Shown here: positions 5,745 through 42,005 of the stretch, in pieces | Layout: every line of letters starts with the position of its first letter | Numbering within the stretch: position 1 is the first letter of the stretch | NCBI RefSeq assembly: GCF_000013405.1 | Contig: NC_007759.1 | Location: 2,419,001 to 2,483,000 of the forward strand | Source of the DNA: Syntrophus aciditrophicus SB | GTDB lineage: Bacteria; Desulfobacterota; Syntrophia; Syntrophales; Syntrophaceae | DNA: 64,000 nucleotides | Direction: 5' to 3' | The notes under the pieces: model-generated | What the model was told of the DNA's origin: nothing | Databases searched by the model: none | What the model saw: only the letters and a program-made list of their open reading frames with translations | Position numbers and translations under genes: made by a program

Positions 5745-5800
5745 CTATAATGACATAAGAAAAAAGCAATGCAATACGGATCGATTACGGACGTTATAAC
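5745..5800 (-). promoter_or_regulatory. 11-base-period direct-repeat box, copy 1
   Basis: On the minus strand this reads CCGTAATCGAT (5780-5790) directly followed by CCGTATTGCAT (5769-5779), preceded by GTTATAACGT. CATTAT lies 16 bases after TTGCAT. It is one of four copies and faces the Sm-like gene that starts at 5598. Direct repeats with an 11-base period next to the -35 region are typical of OmpR/PhoB-type response regulators; which regulator acts here is unknown. Confidence 0.6.
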
Positions 5801-15406: not shown

Positions 15407-16615
15407 ATGATCACCACAGGAATCATCCTCGGATTGACCCTTTTTGTCTTTGCTGTCGGAAAAAGTCCCGTATTCCGCATCGACAGGGCAGGGGCGGCCA
15501 TTATCGGAGCAACCGCAACCATCGCCGCGGGAGCCCTGAGTTTCGACCAGGCGGCACAGGCAATTGACCATCGGACATTAGTCCTCCTGTTCTCCATGAT
15601 GATCATCTCCGCTAATCTCAAACTGGGCGGCTTTTTTGAAAAGACTGGTGATTTTCTGCTCCGGGCCGCTTCCAGCAGACGGCAGCTGCTCATGGTGATC
15701 GTGATGATGAGCGGCCTTCTTTCCGCTCTGTGCATCAACGACATCGTCTGTCTGCTTTTGACGCCCATAGTCCTGACCGTCTGCCGCCGATCTGGGGCCC
15801 CTCCGCTGCCCCACCTCCTGGGAGTCGCCATGGCCTCAAACATCGGCAGCGCCGCGACCCTGGTAGGCAATCCGCAGAATATTCTGATTGCCAGCATTTC
15901 CGGCATGTCTTTCATCTCCTATTTCCTGATGGCAGCGCCTGTTGCTGTTGTAAGCCTGTTTGTAACTTATATCGTCATTGCCTTCATATTCAGAAAACAC
16001 CTTGAAGGTCGTCTCGAGCATGGGGAAACGGAAAGTACAGAATACAATTCCTATGTCGTGGGCAAATCCCTTCTGGCACTGACCCTGGTTTTGACAGGTT
16101 TTCTACTCTCTCTGGACATGGCCGTCACCGCCAGCATCGGTGCGGCCTATCTATTGATTACAAGGCGAGTCTCTCCCAACAGGGTCTATGAAAGCGTTGA
16201 TTTCAATCTGCTGGTCATCTTTACGGGACTGTTTGTCATTGTGGGCGGGGTTGAACACACCGGCCTCATGAAGTGGCTGATAGGGAAGAGTCCTTTTATC
16301 GATTTCGGTAATCTTGCTGTTTTCGGCGCGGCAACGGTTGTTCTATCCAACATCTTCAGCAATGTTCCGGCAGTCATGCTCCTGAAGTACTTTATGCCCC
16401 AGCAGAGTTCGGATGTCTGGTGGACGGCGCTGGCCATTTTTTCGACCATCGCGGGCAACCTGACGATTACAGGCTCCATTGCCAATCTGATTGTGGCGGA
16501 GATCGCTAAAGGCGAACGGATCCGCATCGGCTTCTGGGACTATTTCAAGGCAGGATTTCCCCTGACCGTCGTCGTCTCCGCCCTGTCCATGCTGATTCTC
16601 TGGCAGATATCATGA
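15407..16615 (+). CDS. SLC13/ArsB-type anion transporter
   Basis: A 402-residue inner-membrane protein with about ten hydrophobic segments. Features of the ion-transporter (IT) superfamily are the NDIVCLLLTPIV helix-hairpin at about 107-118 and the ASNIGSAATLVGNPQN motif near 144-159, found in YbiR, ArsB and SLC13 members. A second related hairpin (LSNIFSNVPAVMLL) lies in the C-terminal half, as expected for the inverted-repeat fold. The substrate is probably an oxyanion or dicarboxylate but cannot be specified. No Shine-Dalgarno of note precedes the ATG (GATCAATA). The gene stands alone. Confidence 0.88.
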   Translation: MITTGIILGLTLFVFAVGKSPVFRIDRAGAAIIGATATIAAGALSFDQAAQAIDHRTLVLLFSMMIISANLKLGGFFEKTGDFLLRAASSRRQLLMVIVMMSGLLSALCINDIVCLLLTPIVLTVCRRSGAPPLPHLLGVAMASNIGSAATLVGNPQNILIASISGMSFISYFLMAAPVAVVSLFVTYIVIAFIFRKHLEGRLEHGETESTEYNSYVVGKSLLALTLVLTGFLLSLDMAVTASIGAAYLLITRRVSPNRVYESVDFNLLVIFTGLFVIVGGVEHTGLMKWLIGKSPFIDFGNLAVFGAATVVLSNIFSNVPAVMLLKYFMPQQSSDVWWTALAIFSTIAGNLTITGSIANLIVAEIAKGERIRIGFWDYFKAGFPLTVVVSALSMLILWQIS

Positions 16616-16877: not shown

Positions 16878-17681
16878 CTAACTTCCGGCTATCTGAATCC
16901 GGTTTTCTACAGACTCAACACCTTCCACTTTCAGTGCGGTCATTTCCGCGGCCAGTTTTTCCCGGGGATCATGCACAATCCCCGTCAACCGGACTTTTCC
17001 CGGCGCATTGACGAACGGTGAAGCGTAATTCGATGGAAAACCTGCATTCGCAAGCGCCGCTTTTACTTTTGCCGTAAGTTCCATAAGATTCAGAGGGCTC
17101 ATCCCATCGCGGGAAGGGCACTGGGATTCTCTCAGACGGGCCGCGCGTAAAATCGTATCAGCCGCACTCCTTACCGTCATGTTGTCCATGTTGAGTACCA
17201 TATCATACAACTCGGGATCGCCCCAGTCCCGATTGAAAGCAAACCTGATAAAACTTGAGCGCTCTTGATCGCTCTTCTCCATAATCATGACGGCGGTTTC
17301 CCTCCTGTAAACCTTCTCCAGCAGGTTTTGAACACGCTTTTCATGCGATGCGATTACCCGGACATGAAGCGCATGAGGGATGGGACGAAAAAGCATATTA
17401 CCTCCCCGTCCAAGCACGACCGCGTTCCCATAACGTGAAAGGTCGTAAATTACTGTGTACAGGTGTTCGAGGCAGGTTTCTGTCTGCCATGAAAAAAGCT
17501 GTTTCAAAGGAGAAGGCGGCTTGTCATCTACCTTGCGGATATCATCCAGGAATCCCATTTCTCCCGCTTTTTTTTCGATGGCTTCTGTATCATAGAAGTC
17601 ATAATGAAGTTCTTTTGCCACAAGTTTCGCTATTTCGGTTCCTTTTGTACCTAACTGTCTGGATAAAGTAATAAAGTACAT
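16878..17681 (-). CDS. Cytidylate-kinase-like protein with C-terminal BON domain
   Basis: A 267-residue fusion. Residues 1-~190 belong to the cytidylate-kinase-like group: ITLSRQLGTKGTEIAKLVAK in place of the P-loop, DFYDTEAIEKKA, VVLGRGGNMLF, and RSSFIRFAFNRDWGDPELYDMVLNM. The nucleotide loop is altered (GTKGTEI where relatives have GSGGREI). Residues ~195-267 form a BON domain (GKVRLTGIVHDPREK, GVESVENRIQI), a phospholipid- or ligand-binding module usually exported. The fusion is unusual, and the kinase part may serve as a sensor. The 11-base-period box lies ~80 bases upstream, and GGGAGGGCCCC precedes the ATG. A paralogue without BON is at 23622-24269. Confidence 0.82.
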   Translation of the reverse strand: MYFITLSRQLGTKGTEIAKLVAKELHYDFYDTEAIEKKAGEMGFLDDIRKVDDKPPSPLKQLFSWQTETCLEHLYTVIYDLSRYGNAVVLGRGGNMLFRPIPHALHVRVIASHEKRVQNLLEKVYRRETAVMIMEKSDQERSSFIRFAFNRDWGDPELYDMVLNMDNMTVRSAADTILRAARLRESQCPSRDGMSPLNLMELTAKVKAALANAGFPSNYASPFVNAPGKVRLTGIVHDPREKLAAEMTALKVEGVESVENRIQIAGS

Positions 17682-17761: not shown

Positions 17762-17820
17762 ATATAATGCCATGGCAAAAAAAAACAATGCAATACGGTG
17801 TGATTACGGTCACTATATCA
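17762..17820 (-). promoter_or_regulatory. 11-base-period direct-repeat box, copy 2
   Basis: On the minus strand CCGTAATCACA (17799-17809) is followed by CCGTATTGCAT (17788-17798), a T-rich 18-base spacer and CATTAT. This is the most diverged of the four copies in its first repeat. It faces the kinase-BON gene that starts at 17681. Confidence 0.6.
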
Positions 17821-18127
17821 GTCATATACTGGGATAATGAGGGTCAAGCGGATCTGCGTTGTTCCTTTGGTTTATTTGAGGATAAGCAAAGAGGCAGGAG
17901 AGGAATTTCTCCTTTACATCCCATGAAATTTGGAAAGGGTTTGACAGTCAGTTGCCGATTTATGTAGCATACCGAATTCGATGCCCGGCATTCGTCTACT
18001 CGGAATCGCATTCTTGCATGTATGATCCCGCCGGTTGCGATTCGGGGGCTAAAAATGGTCCACTATGCAGTTAGAAAGCTGCAGGCCACAGCCAACAAAT
18101 AATCTAATTTTCAGGAAAGGAAATAAA

Positions 18128-18595
18128 ATGAATCCAAAACGAATGTTTTTTACAGGAGTTTTTATCTCATGCCTTTTTCTTGTCGGGGGACAGTCCGCTT
18201 CAGCCGAGGATTGGCGTCCCATTAAAGATTCGAATTCGTTCTTCGATGCCTCCAGAATCACTCGCGTTTCTCCATCGGTCATTCGCGCCTGGGAAAGGGT
18301 GTTCCCCGAAAGATACCCGCAAGATCCGACTTTCAGTGTTCTCCTCAGGTTTCAGATCGACTGCAGGAAACAAACAATCGGAATTGTACATCGCACCCAT
18401 TACAATTCGAACGGCCGTGTGATCTATGACGCGGATTTCGAGCGGTCAGGCATTAAAATGCAAAAAGCAGTTCCTGATTCTCACGAAGAGGATATTGTTC
18501 AATCAGTTTGCGATCATGTCAACGCACCCCCGAAGAAAAAGAAAAGAGGCTGGAAGGACAGGATTTTTGGCATTTTCAAAACAGATCGTCCCTGA
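18128..18595 (+). CDS. Secreted protein resembling surface-adhesin protein E (family E, copy 1)
   Basis: A 155-residue exported protein. The signal peptide is MNPKRMFFTGVFISCLFLVG, with cleavage near SASA. The mature part starts EDWRPIKDSNSFFDASRITR and carries VIRAWERVFPE, a cysteine in QIDCRKQTIGI, HYNSNGRVIYD and a second cysteine in QSVCDHVN near the end. This order (W, acidic-Asp-aromatic pair, single Cys, Cys near C-terminus) is that of proteins with the surface-adhesin E domain, in which the two cysteines are likely to pair. AGGAAAGGAAATAAA precedes the ATG at 18128. A paralogue is at 23023-23523. The family assignment is tentative. Confidence 0.7.
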   Translation: MNPKRMFFTGVFISCLFLVGGQSASAEDWRPIKDSNSFFDASRITRVSPSVIRAWERVFPERYPQDPTFSVLLRFQIDCRKQTIGIVHRTHYNSNGRVIYDADFERSGIKMQKAVPDSHEEDIVQSVCDHVNAPPKKKKRGWKDRIFGIFKTDRP

Positions 18596-18855: not shown

Positions 18856-18903
18856 CCTCCGTAATCAATCCGTATTGCATTACATTTAAACTATGGCATT
18901 ATA
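18849..18903 (+). promoter_or_regulatory. 11-base-period direct-repeat box, copy 3
   Basis: CCGTAATCAAT (18859-18869) directly followed by CCGTATTGCAT (18870-18880), a 16-base spacer and CATTAT (18897-18902). It faces the cysteine-pair gene at 18995, giving a leader of roughly 85 bases. The two 11-mers are identical to those of copy 4. Confidence 0.65.
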
Positions 18904-18994: not shown

Positions 18995-19321
18995 ATGATT
19001 TCTAAAAGAATATGGTGTTCATGCTGTGGGCATGAAGGTCCAAGAGAAATTACAGGGGCAGAACCTGCTGAATCAAGAGGCGATGCGTTCACATCAGAAG
19101 GACATGATCCCTATTCCGCGAAACTTTATTTCCGCTGCCCCCGGTGCAAGGTCGTCATTACCGTTGATCCAAACGACGCTCTGGGAAGTTACACCATGAA
19201 CGGCTACCCTTCTCCGACTGAGGCCGCAAAACCGACCGGAACACAGAACTTCATGACAATGCTTGGCGGGCTGTACGCGGGACTCGCGGTTTTGATCCTC
19301 ATTACACAAATATTCTGCTGA
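18995..19321 (+). CDS. Small cysteine-pair protein with C-terminal membrane helix (family A, copy 2)
   Basis: A 108-residue paralogue of the protein at 4553-4879, matching along its whole length. It has MISKRIWCSCCGHEG with a CSCC pair at residues 8-11, CPRC near 49-52, the PNDALGSYTMNGYPSPTE linker and a C-terminal hydrophobic helix (GLYAGLAVLILITQIF). The leader again contains ACCGAATGTTTCTTG, shared with the other copies. AGGGGGAAGCC precedes the ATG. It is driven by the 11-base-period box rather than by CRP-type palindromes, so members of this family answer to two different signals. Probably a zinc-ribbon protein anchored in the inner membrane; function unknown. Confidence 0.8.
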   Translation: MISKRIWCSCCGHEGPREITGAEPAESRGDAFTSEGHDPYSAKLYFRCPRCKVVITVDPNDALGSYTMNGYPSPTEAAKPTGTQNFMTMLGGLYAGLAVLILITQIFC

Positions 19322-23022: not shown

Positions 23023-23523
23023 TTACGGAGAGCAAGAATGCGGCTGAAATGGTCTGCTCCCTTCTCTTTTCAGCTTTTTCGCGGGAACTTTTTTCACATA
23101 CTCACAAACGGCCTGAATAAAAGCGTCGCCATCAGAACATCGCACCACGGGCAACATCTGGATGTTATTTAATTTTGTTTTTTCATCGAAAGATTGGATC
23201 ACGCCGCCGCGAGTATCGTAGTCTGTGGACCCGGCAGCTCCGATCGTTCGTTTCCTGCAGTTAATCCGCTTCATGTTAATGGTATGGGAATAATTGGAGT
23301 AGTCATGAGCCCGGTCTTTCCGCAATTTAGACAGGGCTTCTTCGGAAAGTATGACTCTTTGCCGGACATGAACGACAGATGGAGAGATATGAATCACTCT
23401 GGAAGCATCGAACTTCGAATGGTCAGCAGACCGCCAATCTTCGGCGGAAGCAGTCTTCTGGTCCGCTCCGGAAGCCAGGCATAAGATAAAAAATGCGACA
23501 AGAAAGAGCCGATATGTATTCAT
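23023..23523 (-). CDS. Secreted protein resembling surface-adhesin protein E (family E, copy 2)
   Basis: A 166-residue paralogue of the protein at 18128-18595. The signal peptide (MNTYRLFLVAFFILCLASGA) is followed by SAEDWRSADHSKFDASRVIH, VVHVRQRVILSEE, the first cysteine in RINCRKRTIGA, DYDTRGGVI and the second cysteine in QAVCEYVKK. Spacing of the cysteines matches copy 1, while the central part carries an insertion. The start is the ATG at 23523 with AGGAAAGGGAC upstream. It is probably periplasmic or surface-exposed. The role is unknown and the adhesin-E assignment is tentative. Confidence 0.68.
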   Translation of the reverse strand: MNTYRLFLVAFFILCLASGADQKTASAEDWRSADHSKFDASRVIHISPSVVHVRQRVILSEEALSKLRKDRAHDYSNYSHTINMKRINCRKRTIGAAGSTDYDTRGGVIQSFDEKTKLNNIQMLPVVRCSDGDAFIQAVCEYVKKVPAKKLKREGSRPFQPHSCSP

Positions 23524-23621
23524 TGAATGAATGTCCCTTTCCTGAAAACTGCCATGCGGCCGTTGTCTGCAGCCAAAACGATTGGCACACCCCACGGACC
23601 GTGTCGAAGTATCTGTCTCTA

Positions 23622-24269
23622 TTATGGAATACAGTCCCTGACTTTAATTAATTCCAGGTATGTCAAAATGCAGTCTACAGTTTTGTCGACACCTGTTCTG
23701 CCCGTATTTACGGAAAGGCCATACTGCCTCGCATCCGCCCAATCCTTCCCTGTAAATTTATAATGATATTGAGATCGTTCTTCATCACTTTGTACGATCA
23801 TTTTCTCGGCAACATTTTCTGATACATGATAAATTTTTTGAATGCGACTTTTCCGAAAGGATAAATCCCCGTGCAAAAACATGCTGACATGATTCGGATG
23901 TTCACGAAGGATATAAGAACCGCATCTTCCTATAATAACCGTTGAATGTTCTTGTGCAATGCGAGTAATGATTTCGCTTTCCGTTTTAAATAATTCCCGA
24001 TCTGACGGTACCGTAATCTGTGGCGGTATATAGGAAGTTTCCGGCGTGCAGGCGCAGGATTGGATCAGGAACTGCCAGAGAGAAAGACTTTTTTCATCAC
24101 GTGGTTCCAGTTCTTCCTCCATCACGGAAAGCTTTCTCGCCGCCTGTCCGATGATTTCACGATCCGCGTAAAAAATACTCAATTTTTTTGCCAGTTGTTG
24201 TCCTATATATGCCCCGCCTGCCCCCAGCTGGCGGCTGATTGTAATGACAAAAGGGAAAGTATTTTTCAT
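23622..24269 (-). CDS. Cytidylate-kinase-like protein
   Basis: A 215-residue member of the cytidylate-kinase-like group. It keeps a canonical start FVITISRQLGAGGAYIGQQL with GAGGAYI as the nucleotide loop, then FYADREIIGQAARKLS, VIIGRCGSYIL, the arginine-rich lid SDEERSQYHYKFTGKDWADARQ-type segment, and YGLSVNTGRTGVDKTVD. It lacks the BON domain of the paralogue at 16878-17681. The ATG at 24269 is preceded by AGGTGGG. Members of this group are often found in anaerobes, and their true substrates are unproven; the housekeeping cytidylate kinase is probably elsewhere. Confidence 0.8.
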   Translation of the reverse strand: MKNTFPFVITISRQLGAGGAYIGQQLAKKLSIFYADREIIGQAARKLSVMEEELEPRDEKSLSLWQFLIQSCACTPETSYIPPQITVPSDRELFKTESEIITRIAQEHSTVIIGRCGSYILREHPNHVSMFLHGDLSFRKSRIQKIYHVSENVAEKMIVQSDEERSQYHYKFTGKDWADARQYGLSVNTGRTGVDKTVDCILTYLELIKVRDCIP

Positions 24270-24393
24270 TCTTCCCACCTTTTATATTTTATTACAGATT
24301 ATTTTATTTATAATTATATCAATATAAAAGAAATAGATAGCAGTTTGCGCATCAGGATTCAGAGAATGTTTTATCCAGGGGGCCGATTGAAAC

Positions 24394-41949: not shown

Positions 41950-42005
41950 CATGATGCCACAACTGAAAAGTAATGCAATACGGATTGATTACGGACGCTA
42001 TAACA
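41950..42005 (-). promoter_or_regulatory. 11-base-period direct-repeat box, copy 4
   Basis: On the minus strand GTTATAGCGT, CCGTAATCAAT (41984-41994), CCGTATTGCAT (41973-41983), a 16-base spacer and CATCAT. Both 11-mers are identical to copy 3. It faces the cysteine-pair gene that starts at 41854. The remaining ~245 bases up to 42250 hold no recognised gene. Confidence 0.65.

Follow-up and report, generated by a model that had tools for sequence, protein, structure and literature searches.

The window gene encodes a soluble kinase-like protein with a BON domain

We analysed a stretch of 64,000 bases of the Syntrophus aciditrophicus SB genome (the window), covering positions 2419001-2483000 of the single 3,179,300-base contig. 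One of its genes, here called P0001, encodes a soluble protein in which a Cytidylate_kin2 domain is followed by a BON domain (Table 1). A Pfam scan placed both domains above their cut-offs: Cytidylate_kin2 (PF13189) scored against a cut-off of 28 bits with an E-value of 4.1e-37, and BON (PF04972) against a cut-off of 27 bits with an E-value of 3.2e-8. The initial annotation of this DNA had proposed a cytidylate-kinase-like domain joined to BON, had assigned about 70 C-terminal residues to the latter, and had named a profile search without BON as the result that would speak against it. The Pfam scores bear out both assignments, BON covering residues 201-265 with 34.2 bits against 27. In a phmmer search against the PDB, the first part of P0001 matched 3fdi and 3hdt and the second part matched OsmY (E 0.00054).

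Neither a 19-residue hydropathy scan nor the AlphaFold model gave any sign of a signal peptide or a membrane helix in P0001. Strand 1 of the model begins at residue 3 and the hydropathy mean peaks at 0.72, and we therefore consider P0001 to be without a signal peptide or membrane segment. The same two observations ruled out an exported P0001.

Table 1. Coordinates of the kinase-BON gene, its parts and the related features in the window
Feature	Position	Strand	Remarks
Kinase-BON gene (P0001)	16878..17681	-	267 aa, ATG start, stop counted in
Cytidylate_kin2 domain of P0001	17184..17672	-	Residues 4-166; Pfam 128.5 bits
BON domain of P0001	16887..17081	-	Residues 201-265, with conserved Gly234; Pfam 34.2 bits
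Nucleotide loop GTKGTEI of P0001	17631..17651	-	Residues 11-17; Gly14 at Walker A Lys position, Lys one residue before
Repeat block: four units of 11 bases and TT, with CCGTATTGCATT at its end	17787..17832	-	Upstream of kinase-BON gene
CATTAT, putative -10-like hexamer	17764..17769	-	17 bases after block
Copies of CCGTAATCNNNCCGTATTGCATT	5768-5790, 17787-17809, 18859-18881, 41972-41994	-, -, +, -	
108-aa protein	18995..19321	+	CxxC-type pairs and hydrophobic C-terminus (by eye); box copy at 18859-18881
SLC13-type permease (Pfam CitMHS/ArsB)	15407..16615	+	Convergent neighbour; 262 bases between stop codons
Paralogue, Cytidylate_kin2 without BON, loop GAGGAYI	23622..24278 (start used here)	-	Pfam

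The predicted structure combines a CMP-kinase fold and a BON fold

We modelled P0001 with 47 relatives by AlphaFold (mean pLDDT 86.8, pTM 0.80). The solved folds that best matched its first 186 residues were 3hdt (Z 21.9, rmsd 1.5, 162 residues) and 3fdi (Z 20.6, 158 residues). CMP kinases came next, from Z 17.4 downwards, and guanylate and other kinases appeared among them from Z 13.6; E. coli Cmk (1kdo) gave Z 15.9 with the kinase half. Since the fold search with the whole model returns the kinase half only, we made a separate model of the BON part (pLDDT 89.8), which runs helix 7-23, strand 32-37, strand 40-47, helix 50-61 and strand 68-75. The BON domain is defined by an alpha-beta-beta-alpha-beta fold with a conserved glycine. 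The P0001 model shows this order of elements and this glycine, Gly234 being invariant in two family alignments, A1 and A3. Among the ten best fold matches of the isolated BON model were OsmY (8rjx, Z 11.8), DolP (6xmv, Z 9.7), BonA, the ring proteins CdsD and YscD, Kbp with potassium (7pvc, Z 9.1) and Kbp-based sensors. Thus, the structure prediction that the initial annotation had proposed as a check yielded a CMP-kinase fold together with a BON fold. As profile and fold both point to BON, a false-positive BON assignment was ruled out.

The known proteins that resemble P0001 each match it in part. The PF13189 structures 3hdt ('putative kinase') and 3fdi ('uncharacterized protein') are like it in sequence and fold, but their chains are 223 and 201 residues long and extend no further than the kinase part, and the match to P0001 stops near residue 186. 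Bacterial Cmk shares the fold of the kinase half, whereas its Walker A lysine is absent in P0001. The envelope proteins OsmY and DolP have the same BON fold; according to the accessible part of PMC7806268 they are exported and carry two BON domains, whereas P0001 has a single one and no signal peptide, and so lacks the OsmY/DolP-type pairing of a signal sequence with two BON domains. Kbp/YgaU, a potassium-binding BON-LysM protein, is like P0001 in its BON fold, its single BON domain and its lack of a signal sequence, and differs in the partner domain, which is LysM in Kbp and a kinase fold in P0001, where the Pfam scan found no LysM.

The initial annotation had set the cytoplasmic kinase part against BON domains that are usually exported. 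This contrast is no paradox, because P0001 has no hydrophobic segment and E. coli Kbp, described in the accessible part of PMC7806268 as BON plus LysM, has no discernible signal sequence. A reference cited there calls Kbp a cytoplasmic potassium sensor in its title, and its BON domain binds K+ (accessible part of PMC9481166).

The kinase-BON pair is a conserved family

The pair of kinase and BON domains is a conserved, little-studied family and not a peculiarity of the window genome. A match at E 1e-5 was present in 224 of 395 genomes of the phylum, and a kinase-BON profile matched 158 of 297 genomes at E 1e-25; BON-less kin are counted in both figures. A scan of genome contigs gave 108 relatives, from which 80 loci were kept. 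These comprise Deltaproteobacteria-type MAGs, one Spirochaetales, one SAR324, three Chloroflexi-type MAGs and a mainly Burkholderiales group of 58, made up of 55 records whose titles place them in Burkholderiales, an Azoarcus (L096), a 'Pseudomonadota' MAG (L101) and a 'Gammaproteobacteria' MAG (L102). The kinase-BON family is present in Thermodesulfobacteriota and in this mainly Burkholderiales group.

Both domains were detected at E 0.01 in every sequence of the overlapping alignments A1 (28/28) and A3 (48/48), P0001 among them. A3 consists of P0001 and 47 of the 80 kept loci. Outside it stand 33 loci: another 27 copies from the mainly Burkholderiales group, L052 (a duplicate), L057 (broken), L070 (two residues unread) and L112, L115 and L119 (all BON-less).

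The window genome carries a second kinase-BON gene at 263147-263944, whose BON domain scores 20 bits, below the cut-off. By eye, a copy-like gene of the BON-less paralogue lies about 7 kb beyond the window end (G000:C1:2490166-2490756, L004). In the three other genomes of the genus group of the window genome (the Syntrophus genomes), we found no match to the window gene at E 1e-30; among 17 further genomes of the same order, one matches at this threshold with 38% identity.

The open-access literature that we searched gave no description of the kinase-BON pair or of its linkage to transporters, and the linkage in several clades, set out below, appears to be undescribed there. For PMC7806268, one mention of 'PF13189' was counted, which does not fall in the main text as far as accessible, so the paper may mention the domain pair elsewhere; Table 1 of its accessible part names no kinase-BON class. 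As a guess, cluster 12 of that paper ('one x BON', mainly beta, few delta, as given in the accessible part) could include kinase-BON proteins. In the accessible part of PMC6917644, cytidylate kinase and TTT occur in separate places only, and that of PMC8756737 is a gene list.

Kinase-BON genes lie directly behind transporter genes in several clades

We compared the gene neighbourhoods in 80 genome stretches (one of them the window's own) and in the 80 kept loci. Genes were called with a home-made caller that misses some, and the neighbour counts and distances below depend on it; distances are start-to-end offsets, one above the number of bases between. The loci were chosen by similarity to P0001 and not randomly. 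The Pfam names of the neighbour families come from one or two representatives per family, except DctM and a FumC-like gene, which have no Pfam check.

TctA lies directly upstream of the kinase-BON gene in all 58 loci of the mainly Burkholderiales group, at an offset of at most 110 in 56 of them. In a tree of 118 rows, in which 13 of these 58 were used, a 27-row clade (SH-aLRT 100; 25 loci, 18 genera) has a transporter-type gene directly upstream in 27/27 rows, TerC in 21 and SLC13 in 6, and the offset is 3 in 8 of the 27. The second kinase-BON gene of the window genome (L120/L002) is a member of this clade, with TerC/DUF475 directly upstream at an offset of 148. Other upstream partners in the tree were TauE (2), MFS (2) and MgtC (1). 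Across several subfamilies, the gene immediately ahead of kinase-BON encodes a membrane protein, drawn from six Pfam families in all: TctA, TerC, SLC13/CitMHS, TauE, MFS and MgtC. Downstream of kinase-BON in the TerC/SLC13 clade, we also observed a sodium-pumping decarboxylase beta subunit or a cation P-type ATPase (L137, L152, L165, L167, L170; L151, L153, L160, L163).

We then counted close upstream neighbours (same strand, offset at most 110) and scored as polytopic those with five or more hydrophobic segments. Outside the mainly Burkholderiales group, 87 kinase-BON genes had a called upstream gene; it was close in 45, and polytopic in 29 of these 45. Among the other genes in the same loci, 782 had a called upstream gene, close in 280 and polytopic in 30 of the 280. 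The BON-less kinases, a small control, gave 13, 5 and 0, respectively. Of 20 stretches retrieved to serve as BON-less controls, nine (L202, L204-L211) reach through BON and were counted as kinase-BON; 7-8 of the nine have a polytopic direct upstream neighbour, and L211 has none. Fisher's test gave p 3e-14 for kinase-BON against other genes and p 0.0096 against BON-less kinases, values that overstate the number of events because the rows are related, the tree requiring at least seven changes of partner state.

Several clades follow no transporter rule. FumC-like genes stand upstream in 6 loci, PHP, YebC and GlpX occur as neighbours, and in other clades nothing recurs. The FumC-like (fumarase/aspartase) gene, named by eye, is directly upstream of kinase-BON in L046-L049, L051 and L053. 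Among the 10 loci L192-L201, whose BON-less Cytidylate_kin2 genes come from the same order, five (L194, L196, L199, L200 and L201) have an ATP synthase gamma-type gene as the direct upstream neighbour (by eye, with Pfam on L200 only).

The clades without a transporter rule would fit operon hitch-hiking with no functional meaning, BON being a passenger domain. We regard this as very improbable: different transporter families recur in separate clades with short gaps, as in the rows of the TerC/SLC13 clade with an offset of 3, TerC and SLC13 are swapped as partners inside one clade, and the enrichment over other genes in the same loci is strong by the Fisher value given above.

The Walker A lysine is absent from the whole family

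We took residue counts from a MAFFT alignment of 167 family rows, of which 58 belong to the mainly Burkholderiales group, 92 are other BON-bearing rows and 17 are BON-less; rows were assigned to the BON and BON-less groups by locus, and the broken L057 was excluded. All 92 other BON rows have a residue at the BON glycine column, which is Gly in 87.

When aligned with the genome's own canonical Cmk (L039), none of the 167 rows has Lys at the Walker A column. The Walker A lysine of Cmk falls on Gly14 of P0001, one residue after the lysine of the loop. A profile comparison of the family with Cmk aligns the loop weakly (probability 15.7%, E 0.0017), and the MAFFT alignment gives the same register. 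Of the 92 other BON-bearing rows, 76 keep Gly14. The sequence GGKT in L058 lies one residue off the Walker position and was taken as chance. P0001 lacks the canonical CMP kinase motif GxxxxGK[ST], with Gly14 at the Lys column, and scores 16.3 against the NCBIfam (d)CMP kinase model, below the cut-off of 102.1. A separate canonical Cmk (PF02224) is encoded in the window genome.

These counts bear on the initial annotation in several ways. It had read the loop as GTKGTEI, which the translation confirms. However, an altered loop is no peculiarity of the window gene, the lysine being absent from all rows. It had also described the paralogue at 23622-24269 as BON-less with a normal loop. Pfam agrees on the absence of BON; the loop, GAGGAYI, is without the Walker A GK[ST] and is no normal P-loop, because the paralogue is one of the 17 BON-less rows, all without the Walker A lysine. 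This loop comparison is the only part of its observation on P0001 that fails.

We next looked at R92 and R141, which we take to be phosphate-side residues of CMP kinases. In the MAFFT alignment, R92 aligns with an arginine of Cmk, and R141 adjoins a Cmk arginine column without lying on it. R92 is present in 17/17 BON-less rows, 77/92 other BON rows and 0/58 rows of the mainly Burkholderiales group, which all have Trp; R141 is present in 16/17, 55/92 and 0/58 rows, respectively, the last group having His throughout. By these counts, the BON lineage is marked by arginine erosion, most of all in the mainly Burkholderiales group. D138 is found in 10/17 BON-less, 92/92 other BON and 58/58 mainly Burkholderiales rows, and Y159 in 89/92 other BON and 58/58 mainly Burkholderiales rows. 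P0001 has R92, R141 and D138. Because it keeps both arginines, it cannot be called dead from its sequence, and it may be an active kinase. The suggestion in the initial annotation that the altered loop may abolish catalysis was thus not upheld, given the family-wide absence of the lysine and the retained arginines.

These observations raise the question of whether P0001 is an active small-molecule kinase with a non-Walker loop, in which BON does no more than bind the membrane or aid folding. The transporter operons would then reflect a shared substrate, the kinase phosphorylating whatever its transporter imports. The CMP kinase fold of P0001, its two arginines, which the BON-less rows keep almost throughout, and the retention of Gly14 in most BON rows outside the mainly Burkholderiales group speak for such an enzyme. 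We consider it unlikely, as the Walker A lysine is present in 0/167 rows, both arginines are lost in 58/58 rows that still have BON and the tct operon, and TctA, TerC, SLC13, TauE and MgtC have, as we judge it, no obvious common substrate.

The window gene stands outside a transporter operon and behind an 11-base-repeat box

No transporter lies directly upstream of the window gene on the same strand; the SLC13 permease is convergent to it. In the 8-row clade of the window gene (SH-aLRT 99), two rows (L041 and L045) are at contig edges, and 0/6 readable rows, the window gene included, have a direct upstream transporter. A TRAP DctM-like gene is convergent to L041-L043 of this clade and to the broken relative L057. 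We rejected the convergent SLC13 permease alone as evidence for a transporter link of the window gene, because convergence needs no shared control. Since the readable rows of its own clade are without an upstream transporter, the family-level reading reaches the window gene by inference only. The window also encodes two proteins that resemble each other by eye and match Pfam Adhesin_E, at 18065-18595(+) with 30.3 bits and at 23023-23595(-) with 16.8 bits; only the first passes the cut-off of 23.7.

Upstream of the window gene, a block of 11-base repeats contains a box, CCGTAATCNNNCCGTATTGCATT. The window holds four exact copies of it, where shuffled sequence averages 0.02. The kinase-BON ATG lies 105 bases beyond the end of one copy, and ORFs of 68, 108 and 100 aa stand behind the remaining three. 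The initial annotation had noted an 11-base box before the kinase-BON gene in common with small-protein families, and these copies agree with it. That the box is common to the paralogue at 23622-24278 is unsupported, none of the four copies being located there. Tandem 11-base repeats beside a -10 hexamer presumably resemble sites of OmpR/PhoB-type response regulators. The CATTAT hexamer after the block was not among the matches of our promoter scan.

Genome-wide, the box has 7 copies at up to 3 mismatches, 4 of them inside the window, against 0 for a reversed control. It occurs in 2 to 7 copies in each of 4/4 Syntrophus genomes and in 1 or 2 copies in 4/17 other genomes, while the reversed-control box gave one match each in 3/21 genomes, one of them Syntrophus. 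We read the DNA downstream of 17 box copies by eye, three further copies in one genome being left out. Five stand before a 100-119 aa protein like the one at 18995, five before a protein of about 66 aa, two before one of 68-76 aa and one before kinase-BON; four have nothing recurrent behind them. Thus, small proteins of three recurring families (about 66, 70 and 108 aa) are encoded behind the box, as is kinase-BON.

It may be argued that the TerC, SLC13 and TctA clades have a genuine transporter link and that the window clade has diverged, for instance into a stress or envelope response protein under the 11-base-repeat promoter. The readable rows of the 8-row clade, with no upstream transporter, fit this explanation, as do the three other Syntrophus genomes, which are without a match at E 1e-30 although the box is present in all four. 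This distribution suggests that the window gene was put under an existing local regulon. Nevertheless, the invariant kinase and BON columns (A1, A3) are common to the transporter-linked clades, and the convergent SLC13 permease adjoins the window gene just as L041-L043 and L057 face TRAP DctM. We therefore hold divergence of the window clade to be rather improbable.

A possible role as accessory subunits of transporters

The reading we favour, tentatively and at somewhat less than an even chance, is that kinase-BON proteins are cytosolic accessory subunits of transporters, each with a pseudo-kinase ligand pocket and a docking BON domain, and that the window gene is a free-standing member. The kinase-like half, without the Walker A lysine, would bind a nucleotide or similar ligand via the conserved D138, W153, Y159-D160 and N164, phosphoryl transfer being slight or absent. 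At the inner face, BON would dock on the transporter, the membrane or an ion, and the ligand state of kinase-BON would set transport activity. The window gene would be a free-standing member with its own promoter in the Syntrophus regulon of small proteins, and the target of its product might be the convergent SLC13 permease or a transporter with its gene at another locus. Gene order is not the same as physical contact, however, and it also speaks against this reading that, apart from the mainly Burkholderiales group, a close polytopic neighbour lies upstream of only 29 of the 87 kinase-BON genes.

A broader form of the proposal is possible but more doubtful. One pseudokinase-BON module would then serve secondary transporters and metal exporters in general as an interchangeable sensor subunit. 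It would have been combined again and again with TctA, TerC, SLC13, TauE, MFS and MgtC, would read a cytosolic ligand by means of a fold without its former ATP-gripping residues, and would control flux from the inner face; the window gene would have been freed from its operon under the 11-base-repeat promoter. The transporter linkage of several clades suggests a common way to sense and control transport.

The initial annotation had considered that P0001 might be a sensor or regulator built on a retired kinase fold. This idea is compatible with all that we found, and the transporter gene order makes it concrete, but the reasons given for it, the loop and the export contrast, fail.

To our knowledge, the control of most bacterial secondary transporters (tripartite tricarboxylate, SLC13, TerC-type) is largely open. 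One accessory module behind different transporters would make their control testable with a single protein family, and the same module would give BON and Cytidylate_kin2 a common cytosolic role.

The closest precedent for the way such a subunit may work is TeaD, a soluble, ATP-binding protein that is encoded with teaABC and modulates that TRAP transporter (accessible part of PMC9006882). TeaD has the fold of the USP superfamily (same part of PMC9006882), unlike kinase-BON, and the window gene stands outside any transporter operon.
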